Source of the DNA: Syntrophaceae bacterium UBA7544
GTDB taxonomy: Bacteria > Desulfobacterota > Syntrophia > Syntrophales > Smithellaceae
DNA: 5,368 bases
Assembly (NCBI GenBank): GCA_002479215.1
Contig: DLME01000255.1
Coordinates: forward strand, 1-5,368
Direction: 5' to 3'
Of this stretch, positions 1-5,368 are shown piece after piece (within the stretch, counting starts at the first letter, position 1; each line of letters starts with the position of its first letter). The notes below the pieces were generated by a model. It was not told the DNA's origin and ran no database searches. It saw only the letters and a program-made list of their open reading frames with translations. A program made the position numbers and the translations under genes.

Positions 1-54
1 GTTCAGCGTGTTTTGAGACGCTGGACTTATAAGTACAACACCCGTGTTATCCAT
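1..54 (-). CDS. Start of an unidentified gene, truncated by the window edge
   Basis: Eighteen codons are visible, beginning MDNTGVVLISPASQNTLN, and the frame is still open at base 1. The ATG at 54 is chosen because GAGGT lies about 6 bases upstream, next to the TGA of the preceding gene at 62; that tight spacing is the same as elsewhere in this operon. An earlier ATG overlapping that TGA gives only 12 codons before a TAA. The visible part is polar with a short hydrophobic strand and shows no signal peptide. I do not recognise it. By position it is another late structural or membrane-associated gene of the virus. Confidence 0.55.
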   Translation of the reverse strand, partial: MDNTGVVLISPASQNTLN

Positions 55-61
55 AGATACC

Positions 62-367
62 TCATACGTAGAAATCTGAGCCAGTGGATGGTTTATTCAT
101 TCCCGGTGGATTCTGAATGAGTTGCAGACCTGTCCACTTGTTAGGCTATGGCTGCGGGCTGAAAACAGGATTTACATCTGCGTTTGGCTGTCCAATGGTT
201 CGGAACAAGAATCTTACCCAGCCCCAAATAATGGTAGGCCAAGGAGCGGTTTCAACCTCGACAACGCCTGACGGCGCCCCGACGCCGACCCAATGGATTT
301 GCTGTCCCTCGTTGTAAACACGATTTCGGACTGCCATCTGACCGTTCTATGTGCCATGATTAGCCAT
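62..367 (-). CDS. Unidentified 101-residue late protein with two in-frame TAG codons
   Basis: Read with TAG as sense this is one gene of 101 residues ending in TGA. TAG occurs at codon 7 (347..349) and codon 74 (146..148). The start at 367 has GGAG about 9 bases upstream; the internal ATG at 337, which a standard-code caller would pick, has no Shine-Dalgarno. The middle part is rich in Trp, Val, Gly and Pro (HWVGVGAPSGVVEVE, TIIWGWVRF, residues about 30 to 62) and looks beta-stranded and soluble. The second TAG falls in a Gln/Pro stretch (SPQP, TAG, PNKW), where Gln would fit naturally. No family is recognised. It follows the membrane-protein cluster of a PRD1-like virus, so a virion or assembly role is an inference only. 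Confidence 0.8.
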
Positions 368-382
368 TTTGCTTAACTCCGA

Positions 383-601
383 TCAAGCACTTACGCTTGG
401 TGCATACGTTTGGCTTGTGCCACCGTAGTTTGTCCCGCCAACACCACCCGACATCGCGGTTGCCATTGTCTGCGACAGAGCGTTAGCGCTGCTTGAGAGC
501 ACTTGCGCCGTACCCTGACTATTACGGATCAAGACGGCAAGCGTTGCGAGTCCGATAATATTCAGACTAATTGCTGTCATGCTTTGCATTATTTCGTTCA
601 C
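383..601 (-). CDS. Small one-helix membrane protein, paralogue of its upstream neighbour
   Basis: This is 72 residues with a GTG start at 601, whose bases overlap the TGA of the preceding gene; GGGAG lies just upstream and supports that start. One hydrophobic helix spans roughly residues 9 to 24 (AISLNIIGLATLAVLI), followed by IRN, an Ala/Ser-rich amphipathic stretch, and a Gly/Ser/Thr-rich tail. It resembles the protein of 598..792: both share IIGLA, then IRN, then GT, then TAM.GG at matching spacing. The pair therefore looks like a tandem duplication. Small membrane proteins of this kind are abundant in tectiviruses, where they sit in the internal membrane beneath the capsid; that location is inferred from context. 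It ends in TGA and has no internal TAG. Confidence 0.88.
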   Translation of the reverse strand: MNEIMQSMTAISLNIIGLATLAVLIRNSQGTAQVLSSSANALSQTMATAMSGGVGGTNYGGTSQTYAPSVSA

Positions 602-792
602 TGTTGTACTCCCGATATAGAAGATGATCCGCCCATCGCGGTCGATAATACCTTGCTAAATCCCGTTGATGTTGCATTGAGGATATTCACGGTTCCACTC
701 GCATTTCGAATAATGGTTCCAAGAATTGCTAATCCTATTATGGATGCCGCTATGCTTGTACCGTTTTTTATAATTTCATCCAAACCGTTCAT
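598..792 (-). CDS. Small one-helix membrane protein, paralogue of its downstream neighbour
   Basis: This is 64 residues. The ATG at 792 overlaps the TGA of the preceding gene (ATGA), a typical translational-coupling arrangement, with AAGG about 9 bases upstream. A charged N-terminus (MNGLDEIIKNG) leads into a hydrophobic helix at about residues 12 to 28 (SIAASIIGLAILGTII), then RNASGTVNIL, an amphipathic stretch ending in STAMGG, and a short Ser-rich tail. It is a clear sequence relative of the 383..601 product (shared IIGLA, IRN, GT, TAM.GG). It probably sits in the virion's internal membrane. No enzyme motif is present, and the exact PRD1 counterpart cannot be named. The stop is TGA. Confidence 0.9.
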   Translation of the reverse strand: MNGLDEIIKNGTSIAASIIGLAILGTIIRNASGTVNILNATSTGFSKVLSTAMGGSSSISGVQQ

Positions 793-1073
793 TTGCTTAC
801 CTTCGCATACTGGTTATAAAACTTGCTCACATTACCAATAAACTGTGACTGATTGTTACTATTCAATAGAAATGCAGTCAGAACCAATAGCAAAAACAAC
901 TAGCCCACATTTTTACCTAACATATCTCCAAACATCGCCGCTGCGGTTATAATTATAACCCACGAAATAAACTGACCTTCTTTTTGAAGATTGGTAACAA
1001 GTTGTTTAGCGTTACCTTGCACACCGACCAATATCAGGTAGGTTGCATATCCAATAACCAAAAGGGTTTCCAT
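789..1073 (-). CDS. Three-helix membrane protein with one in-frame TAG
   Basis: With TAG read as sense this encodes 94 residues. Hydrophobic segments lie at about 3 to 17 (TLLVIGYATYLILVG), 38 to 54 (ending in the FGDM turn) and 59 to 70 (LFLLLVLTAFLL). The last begins immediately after the TAG at codon 58 (900..902), so termination there would remove a whole transmembrane helix and the polar C-terminal tail. GAGGTGATATC sits just before the ATG at 1073. The TGA overlaps the ATG of the next gene. There is no ORF listed at standard code longer than about 57 codons, so conventional annotation would miss the gene. A virion membrane protein is likely; the family is not recognised. Confidence 0.85.
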
Positions 1074-1082
1074 GATATCACC

Positions 1083-1175
1083 TCAAGCAAGAGCAAGATA
1101 CGTCGGTAACTCACCTTTGAATAAGAGATACAAAGGAAACCCCAAGAGTAGAGCAATAAAGACTGTGCTGTTCAT
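1083..1175 (-). CDS. Very small one-helix membrane protein (30 residues)
   Basis: The reading frame begins MNSTVFIALLLGFPLYLL, continues with FKGELPTYLALA and ends in TGA. One transmembrane helix occupies about residues 5 to 18, followed by a short Lys/Glu segment and a second short hydrophobic end. GAGGGG lies 5 to 6 bases upstream of the ATG at 1175, and the gene fits between its neighbours with gaps of about 9 bases on each side. At 30 residues, support rests on the Shine-Dalgarno, the operon spacing and the hydrophobic pattern rather than on length. It probably belongs to the set of tiny membrane proteins that tectivirus-like virions carry. No specific counterpart is claimed. Confidence 0.75.
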   Translation of the reverse strand: MNSTVFIALLLGFPLYLLFKGELPTYLALA

Positions 1176-1183
1176 GGCACCCC

Positions 1184-1291
1184 TCAATCAATGGTTGTGC
1201 CAATGTATATTTGTACACCCATAATCATCAATACGAGTGCCACGAAAAAGGCAACTGCCTTGAAGTTTATCTGAGATAGATCGAAGTTCAT
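1184..1291 (-). CDS. Very small one-helix membrane protein (35 residues)
   Basis: The protein starts MNFDLSQINFK, then has a single hydrophobic helix at about residues 12 to 30 (VAFFVALVLMIMGVQIYI), and ends GTTID before TGA. The start at 1291 is preceded by AAAGGA about 8 bases upstream. It is the first gene after the capsid protein and after the long RNA hairpin at 1316..1384, so its expression relative to the capsid protein may be set by that structure. The amphipathic N-terminus followed by one helix fits a small protein of the virion's internal membrane. It is too short for family assignment. Confidence 0.78.
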   Translation of the reverse strand: MNFDLSQINFKAVAFFVALVLMIMGVQIYIGTTID

Positions 1292-1315
1292 TTGTCGAAT
1301 CCTTTAGTTAAAAGT

Positions 1316-1384
1316 CTATAAGAACCCTTCGAGGGGATGTGTCAGTCAAGGGAGAGGACTTGACCAACCGAAGGATTCCTATAG
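1316..1384 (-). terminator. Long imperfect RNA hairpin between capsid and membrane-protein genes
   Basis: On the minus-strand transcript the outer arms are CTATAGGAATCCTTCG (1384..1369) and CGAAGGGTTCTTATAG (1331..1316), 16 pairs. The inner arms GTTGGTCAAG (1368..1359) and CTTGACTGAC (1350..1341) add 10 pairs, closed by an 8-base loop TCCTCTCC. A 9-base bulge (1340..1332) lies on the 3' side only. Four of the 26 pairs are not Watson-Crick, and all four are G-U in the minus-strand RNA but A-C in the plus strand, so the structure fits the mRNA strand specifically. The run of U after it is weak (ACTTTTAAC), so it may be an attenuator, an RNA-processing site or an mRNA 3'-end stabiliser as well as a terminator. 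The type given here is the closest available. Confidence 0.7.
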
Positions 1385-1388
1385 GCAA

Positions 1389-1403
1389 ATCCCTTTTAGG
1401 GAT
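1389..1403 (-). promoter_or_regulatory. Short hairpin just after the capsid stop codon
   Basis: ATCCC, TAAAA, GGGAT forms a 5-pair stem with a 5-base loop about 30 bases past the capsid TGA and 5 bases before the long hairpin. It is small and could be chance by itself. Next to the larger structure it may help protect or process the 3' end of the capsid message. Confidence 0.35.
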
Positions 1404-1431
1404 ATTTATCACTGTTGTAACGCAGTCAGCA

Positions 1432-2532
1432 TCATTGCTGTACTGCACCAATAGCGCCTGCAATACCGAGGGAATATGTAGATTCCCAGCAAACATCCAA
1501 GTGACTGTTTGCATTCACGGTGTTGAACACGAGAGCTTTTTGGATCGCCCCGTAGGTCTGAGTCTGGATTGATTGGTGTCTGTGATCTTGGTAATAGTAT
1601 CCCGCTGGAAGATCGCTCTTAAAACGGGTACGCATATCAGCGCGAATCATTTGAGGCGTCTGTTGCAGTATGATCGAATTGGAGTTCATCACCAAGTTGA
1701 TGCTTGCGATATCGGTTCCGTTAGTGGTAACCGCTCCACCGTTAACGTACCACATATGATTTGCAAGGATGTTTCTCGCCTGTGGGTAATCAACGAACAT
1801 CTGCACGCCCGGTGCCATGGTGGAGTAACTAAAGCCACCGAGAAGTTCATATACGGTCTGTGCGGAGATCAACGGTATAGCGTTGTTTTGCGGGATGATT
1901 CCTTGCTGATAAACGGTCACATAGATGTTATTGATAATCGCTGTGCCGCTCGTAAAGAGATTCGCTGCTACATCAGTTCCATCAATGTTATTCGCAAAAT
2001 TAAGATTCAAATTTACTTGTCCATTCGAGACCGAGGCCATGACTAAACAGCCGTCTAAATTACTGCGTGCGTCATAGGACACGGGTAAATTTAACTCGAA
2101 CATTAGGTTTTTTGTAACCGCGCCTGTGGTGTCTTGAGTCGGAAAGTACATGAGGTCTGTATCAACCGCAGACGACGCCAACATCCAAGGCTAACCGTAA
2201 CGAGCACATAAGATGCTGTACAGTTGATGTCCCGGCAAATTGATTCTGCTTATACCAGCAAAATCCCGAAGCGTGATATTGCTAAGCAAATTGTAAGGCG
2301 CGTATGGAGACGCGGTCACAGGAGATGTAACTGTGCAGTCCGCCTGTACTACAATTCGAAGTCCCGTAAGTATCCCGGCGTTGTTCAGCTTGATTGTGGT
2401 ACAAGACTGGCCGGGCTGGAACGGCCCGGCCTGAGTGACCAATTGTTCGTAATGTATACCTGTGCGAAGAAGCGTTCTGGTGTCGGCAAGGTTATTAGCC
2501 GCTGTATATTGCTGTTGCTGTGTTGCAGCCAT
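1432..2532 (-). CDS. Double jelly-roll major capsid protein, PRD1 P3-like, with in-frame TAG
   Basis: With TAG read as sense the gene encodes 366 residues, against about 395 for PRD1 P3. Visual alignment to P3 is convincing along the chain: Gln/Ala-rich N-terminus (QQQQYTAANNLADTRTLL); GILTGLRIVVQADCTVT against P3 GIVKGFLVKVTAAIT; YNLLSNITLRD; LMFELNLPVSY against LTMYYWVPLAY; INNIYVTVYQQ against EISYTVYQSY; PLISAQTVYEL against PLIDLSTLYNL; VNGGAVTTNGTDI against FDNGGSFNAGTDI; and RTRFKSDLPAGYYYQDHR against RRRIATDFPKGVYYCDNR. P3 has two jelly-roll domains and forms trimers that build the pseudo-T=25 shell. The TAG (2191..2193) is codon 114, in the first jelly roll. The ATG at 2532 has AAAGGA 8 bases upstream; a TTG at 2550 lies inside that signal and is not the start. 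The stop is TGA. Confidence 0.96.
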
Positions 2533-2566
2533 TGTATCAATTCCTTTCAAAAGGTTTTGTGTGTCA

Positions 2567-2581
2567 GACAGTCAAACCGTC
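2567..2581 (-). promoter_or_regulatory. Small hairpin upstream of the capsid gene
   Basis: GACGGT, TTG, ACTGTC forms a 6-pair stem (one G-U pair, again valid only on the minus-strand RNA) over the stop codon of 2572..2685. Just downstream, CCTTTTGAAAGG (2543..2554) can fold on itself and would pair the capsid Shine-Dalgarno. Both are small and could be chance, but together they could tune capsid translation. Confidence 0.3.
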
Positions 2582-2685
2582 AGGTCAGCCATATTGATTG
2601 ATCTGAGGACAGCGTTAATCCCCCAAATCGAAAAATATGCCACCACTGTTATAAACAGTATGTCTTTGGGATTCAGGATATTCAT
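2572..2685 (-). CDS. Tiny one-helix membrane protein, P20/P22 position
   Basis: This is a 37-residue protein starting MNILNPKDILF, with a hydrophobic helix at about residues 9 to 25 (ILFITVVAYFSIWGINA), then RSINMADLTV and TGA. GGGAG lies 7 bases before the ATG at 2685, directly after the TGA of the previous gene. It is one of two tiny membrane proteins between the packaging ATPase and the capsid protein. In PRD1 exactly that slot holds P20 and P22, about 42 and 47 residues, the integral membrane proteins of the unique packaging vertex. The functional parallel is inferred from position, size and single helix; sequence similarity cannot be judged at this length. Confidence 0.78.
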   Translation of the reverse strand: MNILNPKDILFITVVAYFSIWGINAVLRSINMADLTV

Positions 2686-2697
2686 TGTGTACTCCCA

Positions 2698-2820
2698 TCA
2701 AAGATTCTTTGAATTGTATTGGGAGAGTCCGACCACGTTCAGGAGTTGGTCGATGAGAAAAAGTCCTGCATAGGCGGTCAAGCCGATGATAACGATATTC
2801 ATGAGGTCTAATTTTAGCAA
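2698..2820 (-). CDS. Tiny one-helix membrane protein with TTG start, P20/P22 position
   Basis: The start is taken as TTG at 2820 because AAAGGA lies 8 bases upstream of it; the in-frame ATG at 2802 would be about 26 bases from that signal. This gives 40 residues (34 from the ATG). A hydrophobic helix covers about residues 8 to 23 (NIVIIGLTAYAGLFLI), followed by DQLLNVVGLSQYN and a Lys-containing end. The stop is TGA. It is the first gene after the ATPase and the AT-rich spacer. With its neighbour 2572..2685 it occupies the place of PRD1 P20/P22, which anchor the packaging machinery to the vertex membrane. That role is an inference from synteny. Confidence 0.75.
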   Translation of the reverse strand: MLKLDLMNIVIIGLTAYAGLFLIDQLLNVVGLSQYNSKNL

Positions 2821-2928
2821 TGTAGTAATCCTTTCAAGCGAAAAAATGGTTGTCAGAAAAAACCTTTGCAAAAGTCTTTTGATTAATTAGTTATCAAATA
2901 TTGACGTTACTGAGGTAACGAAGTCCGC
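2821..2928 (-). promoter_or_regulatory. AT-rich spacer with hairpins and U-tracts between ATPase and capsid cluster
   Basis: No gene fits here. In transcription order it holds a hairpin CGTTAC-CTCA-GTAACG (2920..2905), an imperfect AT stem TTGATAA...TTAATCAA around 2879..2897, a stem CAAAA-GAC-TTTTG (2881..2869), then runs of six T at 2862..2857 and 2846..2841, and finally the AAAGGA for the TTG-start gene. Hairpins followed by T runs could end or attenuate transcription from the upstream genes. An AT-rich gap here would also suit a late promoter for the capsid cluster, but I cannot point to convincing -35 and -10 boxes. Confidence 0.4.
2905..2920 (-). terminator. Hairpin just after the ATPase stop, possible weak terminator
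   Basis: CGTTAC, CTCA, GTAACG makes a perfect 6-pair stem with a 4-base loop, beginning 8 bases past the ATPase TGA. There is no T run immediately after it; T tracts come only 40 to 60 bases later, so classical intrinsic termination is uncertain. Confidence 0.35.
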
Positions 2929-3555
2929 TCATTGGGGTATCACCCCATACGTTCTCAAGTTGTCCGTTGCGACGGTGTAGAATCTCTAACAATAACGAGG
3001 TGGATTGGTCATGACTTCCTCGCGCCCACATGCCTCATACATACGTTTTCGATCTTCTTTAAGGTTGAGGCTGAAGATGGATAGATAATCCGACTCGGAG
3101 AACACGAAACGTGAAACCCATGCAGGCCGCTGTGTTCCACCCAAAAAAGACTGTCTTCGAGACCTGCCCCTTGTGAGCCATGAGGTTAAGCCAACACCAG
3201 CTTGCCCCTGATGGTGGAGCATATACAATTCATCTATGTATAAGCCGATGTTCGTTATGCTTTCATGAACATAATGAATCTATCCATCAACGTAATCATA
3301 TTGATGTGCTGGTGGACGTAAGACAAGCCACTGGCTTTCCTCAAACACCTTGAGTATCTTATTAGTATCGGGAAGGTCTTCGATGATCCTGAAATTATTA
3401 AACCCCTCATCAATCTTGAGATCAACGATAAGCCATTTAAGCGGAGACCGTTTAACCATCCACTTGGACTATACCGATTTTCCCGATCCTGTCCGACCGA
3501 CCACACAGCATCGTTTACCCGGATTAATGTATGGAAGTGGTGTCGCTGACTTCAT
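2929..3555 (-). CDS. Genome-packaging ATPase, P9-like FtsK/HerA family, with three in-frame TAGs
   Basis: Read through TAG this is one 208-residue protein ending in TGA; PRD1 P9 is about 227 residues. The Walker A loop is GRTGSGKSV (residues 20 to 28). Walker B is GLYIDE (104 to 109), with Asp108 and Glu109 as the expected metal-binding and catalytic acids. The stretch LTRGRSRRQ (127 to 135) and TQRP (141 to 144) match the arginine-rich and P9-specific motifs of membrane-containing double jelly-roll viruses. The family forms a ring at the special vertex and drives DNA into a preformed shell. TAGs are codons 29 (3469..3471, directly after the P-loop), 92 (3280..3282) and 190 (2986..2988). The start overlaps the preceding gene by 32 bases and has AGGGA about 10 bases upstream. 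No standard-code frame contains both Walker motifs. Confidence 0.95.
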
Positions 3556-4021
3556 TTTTTGGTTTCCCTGCTTGTGCTTTTTTCGCGGCAATACGCTTTA
3601 AAATGATCGGCATTCTTGGCACATAAATCATTGCACTGGTGCCAATCAATGTTATACACGCCATTATTTTTGGATTGGGCTGGAAGTCGAATTCTTCGCC
3701 AAAGGTGATTATGGCTTTCGCCAATGATGCCGCCTCTTCAGGCTGCAAAGCAACTTCAGGTATCCCGCTCATCATTGCCATAATAGCGTGCAGGCCGTAT
3801 ATCTGTTTACCGACATCCTCAACCGTCGCAACTTTTTTGGACTTGCGTTTCACGGGTTTTTCATCGGCCTTCGGAATTTCAATGACTCGATCTGCTTCGG
3901 GCTTTGGTGCCGCTTCCGCTGGATTTTTTTTCGGCCTGCCCCGCCTTTTTTTCGGCTCTGAAACCGTTGAATCTGGATTCAGTTCCAAAACATCTTCAAA
4001 TGTTTGTGTTGTGTCACTCAT
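3524..4021 (-). CDS. AT-hook protein with one membrane segment, P10 position
   Basis: This 165-residue protein has three parts. Residues 1 to about 65 are charged and probably disordered, with a textbook AT-hook KKRRGRPKK (24 to 32) and a second basic cluster KPVKRKSKK (55 to 63). Residues 66 to 118 are helical (VGKQIYGLHAIMAMMSG, PEEAASLAKAI). Residues about 119 to 135 form a likely transmembrane helix (IMACITLIGTSAMIYVPR), followed by a basic tail. An AT-hook binds the minor groove of AT-rich DNA, so the protein could join viral DNA to the membrane. It sits directly upstream of, and overlaps, the ATPase, where PRD1 has the membrane assembly protein P10; correspondence is positional only. 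AGGGG lies 8 bases before the ATG. It ends in TAA, one of two such stops here, with no internal TAG. Confidence 0.88.
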   Translation of the reverse strand: MSDTTQTFEDVLELNPDSTVSEPKKRRGRPKKNPAEAAPKPEADRVIEIPKADEKPVKRKSKKVATVEDVGKQIYGLHAIMAMMSGIPEVALQPEEAASLAKAIITFGEEFDFQPNPKIMACITLIGTSAMIYVPRMPIILKRIAAKKAQAGKPKNEVSDTTSIH

Positions 4022-4043
4022 TTTTCATCCCCTTTGCAGTCGG

Positions 4044-4409
4044 TCAAATCCAACCACGTTTGTGCTTCTTGGTTTTCTTCTTTGGCTCTTCGTCTTCCTT
4101 GGGTGCCTTTTCAGTCACCGGCTCAACCACTTCCTCGACTGCGGTTTCCTCAACCTTTTCCTCTTTTTTGGGAAGCCTTTCATCAATCTTTAATTCAATG
4201 TCGCTCAATCGACTGAAGATATTAGCAACATCGTTTTTGAGCTATTCAAATTCGGCCTCTTTCATTTTTTCCTGTATCTTTTCCTCTTTTATTTCTTCGG
4301 CCTCAACGATGGCTTCTTTTACGGCTTCCTTGATTTCTTCAGGCTCTGGCGTAGCCACTCCTACCGCTGGCTCTGTTACCACTACGGGAGTTTCAAAATT
4401 TTCGTCCAT
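4044..4409 (-). CDS. Acidic coiled-coil protein with in-frame TAG and basic tail
   Basis: This is 121 residues with TAG at codon 56 (4242..4244) read as sense. After a Val/Pro/Glu N-terminus, residues about 22 to 56 are a highly charged helix (EIKEAVKEAIVEAEEIKEEK). Residues about 57 to 78 have a heptad-like hydrophobic pattern (LKNDVANIFSRLSDIELKI) typical of a short coiled coil, which lies entirely after the TAG. A second Glu/Pro-rich stretch follows, then a basic end KKKTKKHKRGWI. The ATG at 4409 is preferred over an upstream one at 4460 because AAAGGA lies about 7 bases upstream. The stop is TGA. PRD1 has the packaging-efficiency protein P6 in this region, but I see no sequence basis for naming it so; a scaffold, assembly or DNA-associated role is possible. 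Confidence 0.82.
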
Positions 4410-4413
4410 GGTT

Positions 4414-4614
4414 TTATCCTTTGGGAAAATATTCCTCTTTAATAAGGAGCATCTTAACAAGATTGCTCAACGTCTTGTCCATTTCAAGTAAACTATCCCT
4501 TATCTGTATTAGTAACTTCGTCTGATTGTCGTCCATCTTAGCCTTGTTCAACATGAACATTTCGATCTGTTTGGCTTTATTGCCAAGGTCGTTAAAATCA
4601 ATGGAATGGAACAT
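4414..4614 (-). CDS. Small helical protein, possible assembly factor
   Basis: This 66-residue protein has almost continuous helical, amphipathic character (NKAKQIEMFMLNKAKMDDN, IRDSLLEMDKTLSNLVKMLL) with leucines and methionines at heptad-like spacing, consistent with a short coiled coil. It has no membrane segment and no signal peptide. AAGGAG lies 9 bases before the ATG at 4614, and the previous gene's TGA ends at 4616, so the two are tightly coupled. The stop is TAA. In PRD1 the genes between the spike and packaging genes encode small helical non-structural assembly factors (P17, P33). Similar size and place make that a reasonable guess, but no homology can be claimed. Confidence 0.82.
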   Translation of the reverse strand: MFHSIDFNDLGNKAKQIEMFMLNKAKMDDNQTKLLIQIRDSLLEMDKTLSNLVKMLLIKEEYFPKG

Positions 4615-4615
4615 C

Positions 4616-5089
4616 TCAGATTACTCCTTTGCTAACGATATGTCCAGCCGCCGTTGCTACGGCCTGTCCAGTTAATGCTTTTGCTGGCTGTTGAGTTTCG
4701 AGGAGAGATTCGATATCTTTTGCAACTTTAAACACCATTACCGCTATGTTGCGTAGGTGATCTATCTCTTCACCCTTGGTGATCCATTCAATAGTGCATT
4801 GAACATTTGTCCCTGTCAATGATACGTAGATTCCATTCTGTAGATGCATTGGGTGTATCTAGTCACGTCCGAAAAAGAACGACCCACCGGGATTAGTATA
4901 CGCGCCAATGAGATTTAGAGTCGATGCCTGTGCTTGATCCATGCAATCATAGACTGTCACACACCCGCTGTTAGTGCCGTCGCCAAATACTTGAATTGCA
5001 GATATATTACAAGCGCCCCTGTATATCAGAGTATTGGCACTGACAAGACCGCTATATCGTACATTAGTTGTTGTCGTGTTGGTTCTCAT
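4616..5089 (-). CDS. Beta-rich probable virion surface protein with in-frame TAG and helical C-terminus
   Basis: With TAG read as sense this is 157 residues. Residues about 10 to 104 look like a compact beta-sandwich seen in many small phage surface proteins: a Gly-containing strand (GACNISAIQVF), a loop DGTNSG, then VTVYDCMD, a GGSFFFGRD turn, NGIYVSLTGT and CTIEWI. The TAG (4859..4861) is codon 77, between the GGSFFFGRD turn and the NGIYV strand, so the fold is complete only after read-through. Residues about 105 to 132 form a helix (EIDHLRNIAVMVFKVAKDIE), followed by an Ala/Gly-rich tail. AAAGGA lies 6 bases before the ATG at 5089; the internal ATG at 4849 has no ribosome binding site. In PRD1 the penton and spike genes lie in this part of the late region. 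The exact role is not established. Confidence 0.87.
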
Positions 5090-5099
5090 TTTGTTCCTT

Positions 5100-5368
5100 T
5101 CAAAATTGAGCTAAATATGCAACGCAATACAATTGACCTTTTGAAAGCGTTGCAGTCGATGCAAACGTTAAAACGCCCGATGAACTTGTTAAGTACACAG
5201 GTTGTGTTAACGAAACGTTAGCAAGCATTTGACTTAAGACTGAGGCAGTTGCAGCCGCTGGAAAATAGGCATGAGTCTGTAATAGGGTGGCTAATGCAAG
5301 TGCAAGTGTGACTTCCGATTCTGAGGCGGAAGTAGCAGCAAGATAAGCCCCTTGTATATATCCACCAC
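5100..5368 (-). CDS. C-terminal part of an unidentified Ala/Thr/Ser-rich protein
   Basis: The frame is open from the right edge and ends in TGA at 5100; 88 residues are visible. The upstream half is Ala/Ser/Leu-rich and probably helical (SASESEVTLALALATLLQTH), and the last 40 residues alternate Val/Leu with Ser/Thr (SLTQPVYLTSSSGVLTF, KGQLYCVAYLAQF), suggesting beta strands. The stop overlaps the region carrying the Shine-Dalgarno of the next gene, so the two are co-transcribed. No TAG occurs in the visible part. It may be a virion protein, perhaps of the vertex or spike, judging only by its neighbours. The start lies outside the window. Confidence 0.78.
   Translation of the reverse strand, partial: GGYIQGAYLAATSASESEVTLALALATLLQTHAYFPAAATASVLSQMLANVSLTQPVYLTSSSGVLTFASTATLSKGQLYCVAYLAQF

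Follow-up and report, generated by a model that had tools for sequence, protein, structure and literature searches.

In-frame amber codons, probably read as tryptophan, in a PRD1-like virus contig binned with Syntrophaceae bacterium UBA7544

Contig DLME01000255.1 in the assembly of Syntrophaceae bacterium UBA7544 carries a set of small viral genes, several of which contain TAG codons in frame, and this raises the question whether these amber codons are translated and, if so, into which amino acid. The window, i.e., the whole stretch of DNA that was analysed, comprises bases 1-5368 of the 8095-base contig (L032; C185), which lies inside a metagenome-assembled genome (MAG; G000) of 2.98 Mb in 305 contigs. 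All genes described here lie on the minus strand of the contig. With a probability of roughly 0.78 we conclude that TAG, which occurs inside eight of 17 genes, encodes tryptophan (Trp, W) by means of a predicted virus-borne tRNA-Trp(CUA) in the unassembled part of the viral genome. The TAG positions and gene ends that an earlier note gave for the window hold, with the qualifications that the window is part of the contig only and that the start of the ATPase gene had to be corrected to the ATG at 3555.

The major capsid protein (1432..2532, 366 aa) belongs to the PRD1 P3 family, with matches to PF25514 and PF09018 that are both over the cut-off and a match to PDB entry 1cjd (E=7e-18). The packaging ATPase (2929..3555, 208 aa) is of the PRD1 P9 kind; it matches phrog_2666 and shares 26.4% identity with the product of PRD1 gene IX. 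Judged by these sequences the virus is PRD1-like, with a P3-type double jelly-roll capsid and a P9-type packaging ATPase, and the affiliation that the earlier note had proposed is thus borne out. Both components, together with P18-like proteins, are common to PRD1 and to the PRD1-like viruses of the IMG/VR database, of which locus L115 is the nearest among those compared.

TAG as a sense codon

The nine TAG codons that had been reported in frame inside six genes of the window were all recovered at the same coordinates on the minus strand. Three belong to the ATPase gene, namely codons 29 (3469..3471), 92 (3280..3282) and 190 (2986..2988), and one to the capsid gene (codon 114, 2191..2193). The others are codons 7 (347..349) and 74 (146..148) of g14, codon 58 of g11 (900..902), codon 56 of g3 (4242..4244) and codon 77 of g1 (4859..4861). 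The contig beyond the window adds three more: a small Cys gene has two, and a spike-like gene has one (codon 65, L032 5858..5860, outside the window). The whole contig thus holds 12 in-frame TAG codons in eight of 17 genes. The count of 15 gene ends inside the window with 13 TGA, two TAA and no TAG was likewise correct; for all 17 gene ends of the contig the figures are 13 TGA, four TAA and no TAG.

The in-frame stop codons of the eight TAG-bearing genes are 12 TAG, no TAA and no TGA, versus 20 TAG, 72 TAA and 71 TGA in the remaining two frames of these genes. Drawing 12 TAG out of 12 from the stop codon mix of the other frames has a probability of P=1e-11; since the absence of TAA and TGA was itself the criterion by which the genes had been chosen, this value is optimistic. 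Firmer evidence for a sense TAG is the homology that spans the TAG codons of the ATPase, capsid, spike-like and g11 genes. Across the ATPase codons 120 full-length homologues were aligned, and across the capsid codon 50 viral loci that show either a residue or a gap there, in addition to PRD1 P3. The frames of g1, g3 and g14, which have no usable homologue, are open only with TAG as a sense codon. TAG is almost certainly a sense codon, because 12 TAG and no TAA or TGA lie inside the genes and none of the 17 gene ends is a TAG; stop counts, gene ends and homology across the TAG codons all support what the earlier note had claimed on this point. A comparison of whole-locus coding density under changed codes was dropped as too noisy.

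The same pattern could in principle stem from decayed or hypermutated genes of a dead virus copy, with TGG turned into TAG by G-to-A changes, or from base errors. A single transition separates TGG from TAG, and according to PMC8629427 the stop codons of yeast pseudogenes gave false assignments of TAG or TGA to Trp in automated inference. Decay would, however, be expected to leave TGA as well, which is equally near to TGG, and the 12 TAG stand against 0 TGA (P=2e-4), without any in-frame TAA. Within the genes there is no frameshift except at a 2-N gap, TAG is absent from all 17 gene ends, and GG-rich glycine codons are still common, with 110 GGN among 1551 codons. By eye, a purine-rich site precedes the start codon in seven of the eight TAG-bearing genes. 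Decay or base errors are therefore a very improbable explanation.

The amino acid inserted at TAG

The analysis set out from glutamine (Gln, Q; genetic code 15) and abandoned it once the ATPase columns had been read as W. The ATPase alignment comprises 120 listed homologues of 259 found, with TAG entered as Q. In the six nearest homologues (P0003-P0008), known as proteins only and not as codons, columns 29, 92 and 190 all hold W (18 of 18 cells). A FastTree phylogeny with the TAG positions masked groups the window ATPase with P0003-P0008 at a support of 0.993. These six have W in common at eight of the window's 208 columns, where the window itself has TGG four times, TAG three times and a phenylalanine (F) codon once; that all three ATPase TAG codons fall on these eight columns has a probability of P=4e-5. 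Among the 120 listed homologues column 190 is W in 117 and F in three. The window ATPase is 58% identical to P0003 if its TAG codons are translated as Q, and 60% if they are translated as W. These columns of the nearest clade, 29, 92 and 190, are the core of the case for Trp.

For Gln, conveyed by a Gln-type suppressor tRNA as in crAss-like phages, speaks the precedent that the earlier note named, for it is the usual meaning of TAG recoding in phages (PMC7886860, PMC10879173). Q also stands at the TAG positions of two database proteins (P0001, P0123) and in five weak matches of the spike-like protein. At the three ATPase columns, in contrast, Q is found in none of the 120 listed homologues, and the alignment is sound at codons 135 and 142, because these two sense Q codons correspond to Q in 120 of 120. 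A Gln reading would replace W at three positions that are W throughout the six nearest ATPases, the coincidence given above as P=4e-5. TAG is probably not Gln because the three ATPase TAG codons sit on tryptophan columns, and we regard the Gln reading as unlikely. The alignment of the TAG columns with homologues, which had been named as a check, yielded Q only in the weak spike matches and in four of 50 capsids.

Log-odds summed in the manner of Codetta across the six alignable TAG sites gave 7.9 nats for W, 0.9 for methionine (M) and 0.4 for F, again at odds with the code 15 precedent; the best residue per site was W at four sites and arginine (R) at two. We assign a moderate weight to this sum. 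At the TAG column of the spike-like protein the nearest relative compared, L115, has W (E=5e-9, 139 columns).

Several observations weigh against the Trp reading. W is a minority residue at two of the three ATPase columns in the listed homologues, with L 95, W 12 and others 13 at column 29, and F 53, L 26, W 17 and others 24 at column 92. The log-odds at column 29 give W a bare lead over L (0.82 vs 0.76), 3.5 of the 7.9 nats for W come from the single spike pair, and in a control the Codetta-like procedure was right for 48 of 61 sense codons and once assigned W to CAT. At the spike column L048 (E=0.005) has H, and the five weak matches have Q (E=0.05 to 0.65; L045 and L046 are alike). Capsid codon 114 lies in a variable stretch, is A in PRD1, and among the 50 loci (R 7, A 7, S 6, Y 6, K 4, Q 4, W 3, H 3, others 10) its residues do not favour W. 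For g11 codon 58 a MAFFT alignment shows R or K in five homologues, and pairwise alignments show P and R in two. For six of the 12 sites (g1, g3, two in g14 and two in the Cys gene) the searches gave no usable homologue, with all matches at E>=0.02; phage records contained nothing that matched the Cys gene, g1 or g14, and a protein search with the Cys gene gave only the virus's own protein. The case for Trp is thus carried by the ATPase and one spike pair only. P0001 (capsid) and P0123 (Cys gene) are otherwise identical to the virus proteins and have Q at the TAG positions. Finally, neither ARAGORN nor Rfam detected a tRNA with a CUA anticodon, which the earlier note had pointed to as a check, on the contig, which lacks about half of the viral genome, and the anticodons of the MAG's 37 tRNAs over the cut-off include no CUA either.

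The Q residues of P0001 and P0123 are taken for the product of automatic translation with code 15, and CAG may stand in other copies of these genes. No near-identical ATPase was seen among the 120 listed of 259 homologues from the same protein database, the best sharing 58% identity.

TAG might also stand for other or mixed residues, for instance if it were read by near-cognate tRNAs, by a suppressor of the Arg or Lys type, or by a tRNA-Trp(CUA) that partly carries Gln. In line with this explanation, homologues have R or K at the g11 column, and R is one of the most frequent residues at capsid codon 114. In E. coli an amber suppressor made from tRNA-Trp carries Gln. Against mixed residues stand the nearest ATPases, with W in 18 of 18 cells, and against pyrrolysine the lack of a CUA tRNA among the tRNAs read in the MAG; an explanation of this kind is very unlikely.

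Decoding tRNA, presumed host and relatives

Database contigs encode the capsid and Cys proteins of the virus, and the longest one with the capsid protein measures 16361 bases. About half of a viral genome of some 16 kb is therefore unseen; the predicted tRNA-Trp(CUA) would lie in this half. Searches of the MAG for the rest of the virus with the contig end, the whole contig and PF03175 returned only the contig itself or short matches at chance level. The best of these short matches covers 24 bases in contig C203 (E=0.02), without CRISPR-like repeats around it. Three weaker tRNA matches of the MAG consist of one tRNA-SeC, with anticodon tca (L086; G000 C159:3800-4700), and two that ARAGORN did not recognise.

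In six stretches of the MAG (115,887 bases) the ends of 83 long open reading frames (ORFs) are 53 TAA, 18 TGA and 12 TAG; a search of the MAG for 16S found none. Release factor 1 (RF1) was found over the cut-off in nine of the 11 genomes searched, these nine being relatives of the MAG; the MAG itself (G000) and G004 gave partial matches. In the MAG (L188; G000 C30:28900-31158) stretches of N interrupt the RF1 gene, and its start region occurs twice, across a gap. A split RF1 gene was considered and rejected, the apparent break being a run of N. The tetranucleotide distance between the virus contig and the MAG is 0.205, and host segments range from 0.113 to 0.316 (n=11); this composition is compatible with the MAG as presumed host.

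That the recoding is unusual for such a virus, as the earlier note had supposed, agrees with the relatives: no stop codon interrupts the ATPase matches reported for 56 IMG/VR loci (39 + 17) or the 49 capsid matches reported, unlike the genes described here. ARAGORN detected no tRNA in 53 of the relative loci (36 + 17; L069-L071 left out). Since the matches of the relatives are free of stop codons, the recoding seems to be of recent origin or restricted to a small lineage, the closest homologues P0003-P0008 being available as proteins only. When 197 relatives of the MAG were searched with the capsid, the only hit was the window itself, and IMG/VR scans with the capsid and with a polymerase-like frame of the contig gave no relative. 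The scan of genome contigs gave at least five short hits to the P-loop, which span no more than query residues 10-38. With the ATPase alignment, six of 395 genomes of the MAG's phylum were matched, namely the window and five marginal P-loop hits (E 5e-4 to 9e-4). A pattern scan with the capsid motif returned 19 contigs.

Trp-type decoding of amber codons has precedents of other kinds. In the plastids of Balanophora UAG stands for Trp (code 32) and is decoded by a tRNA-Trp with a mutated CUA anticodon (PMC13128298). There UAG is read as Trp beside UGG, as it would be in the present virus; the plastid is an organelle that has lost RF1 and imports a nuclear tRNA, whereas here a virus is concerned whose presumed host lineage has RF1. 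Among 180 phage suppressor tRNAs near theta ribozymes 19.4% were predicted as Trp, which PMC10879173 calls the rarely reported code 32. Those Trp isotypes are predictions from the tRNA side in other phages; here the evidence comes from the protein side and the tRNA is missing. TGA read as Trp together with an apparently idle amber suppressor is described in PMC12386605. Among the top entries listed in searches of the open-licence PMC literature there was no case of UAG or TAG read as Trp in phages at the protein level.

A pattern search of IMG/VR for a CUA tRNA with a Trp-like anticodon arm gave 44 viral contigs (L139-L182). ARAGORN finds the CUA tRNA in 44 of 44, labelled Pyl. Several of these contigs look TAG-recoded near the CUA tRNA; L178 has a frame of 1421 codons with 24 TAG and 7 TGG.

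Gene map and proposed use of the amber codon

The order spike, g4, ATPase, capsid, g10, g11 and P18 is the same in L115. The spike-like gene enters the window with its C-terminal piece (5100..5366) and continues over a 2-N gap to L032 6052; the gap, at L032 5369..5370, shifts the frame and is probably an assembly join. The spike-like gene is followed by g1 (4616..5089, 157 aa), g2 (4414..4614, 66 aa; no TAG, stop TAA, an open frame with AAAGGAG upstream), the acidic, lysine-rich g3 (4044..4409, 121 aa) and g4 (3524..4021, 165 aa). The latter has no TAG, ends in TAA, matches phrog_14814 and has 44 homologous ORFs. Between the ATPase and capsid genes lie g6 (2698..2802, 34 aa) and g7 (2572..2685, 37 aa), both open frames without TAG. 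Beyond the capsid gene follow the hydrophobic g9 (1184..1291, 35 aa; an open frame without TAG, with AAAGGA upstream), g10 (1083..1175, 30 aa; no TAG, 22 homologous ORFs in viral loci) and the membrane-like g11 (789..1073, 94 aa), which shares 38% identity with its L115 homologue over 66 columns. Two small proteins without TAG resemble the PRD1 membrane DNA-delivery protein: P18a (598..792; phrog_8052, E=4e-6) and P18b (383..589; phrog_8052, E=3e-5). The match of P18a to PF11087 has E=6e-6, yet reaches only 26 bits versus a curated cut-off of 46. The last gene in this direction is g14 (62..367), a protein of 101 aa without assigned function whose stop codon is TGA.

Three features lie past the window, i.e., the main part of the spike-like gene, the small Cys gene with its two TAG codons and a partial polymerase-like frame of 607 codons (L032 6272..8095), on the same strand as the TAG-bearing genes. 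The motifs of the latter were identified by our own reading; it has no Pfam match at 0.01 and matches phrog_11119 with E=0.004. The frame may represent the protein-primed DNA polymerase that, along with a terminal protein and inverted terminal repeats, marks the Tectiviridae and their kin. The frame contains eight TGG and no TAG, versus 20 TGG and 12 TAG elsewhere (Fisher P=0.079).

In the mechanism that we propose a Trp-charged amber suppressor would have been present, and TGG codons would then have turned into TAG by single G-to-A steps. Both codons would now serve Trp, with 12 TAG and 20 TGG outside the polymerase. The tRNA would be viral and compete with the RF1 of the host, and with TAG kept out of early genes the virion proteins would be finished only late. 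The contrast between the polymerase-like frame and the other genes is suggestive and fits the late-gene pattern reported for crAss-like phages (PMC7886860). The same source describes in-frame TAG in structural genes, a standard-code host and a possible absence of TAG from early genes for code 15 phages, crAss-like and others, all of which would be common to both systems; there TAG is taken as Gln and the phages are large and tailed, while here Trp is indicated in a small PRD1-like virus. Taken as a whole, the picture of a PRD1-like phage of ~16 kb with its own UAG=Trp code and a virus-borne tRNA-Trp(CUA), in a standard-code host with RF1, that keeps UAG from its polymerase and lets only the virion proteins depend on the switch, is tentative, and we give it somewhat less than an even chance.

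If the Trp reading is true, a bacterial virus would show UAG as Trp at the level of its proteins, a variant of the genetic code that has seldom been seen. Stop codon recoding, known from large tailed phages, would then also occur in a small PRD1-like phage. Amber recoding in phages, commonly annotated with code 15 (Gln), may in part be Trp, and database proteins such as P0001 and P0123 may therefore hold wrong residues. The virus would also provide a compact system to ask how a tRNA-Trp(CUA) retains its Trp identity and competes with RF1.

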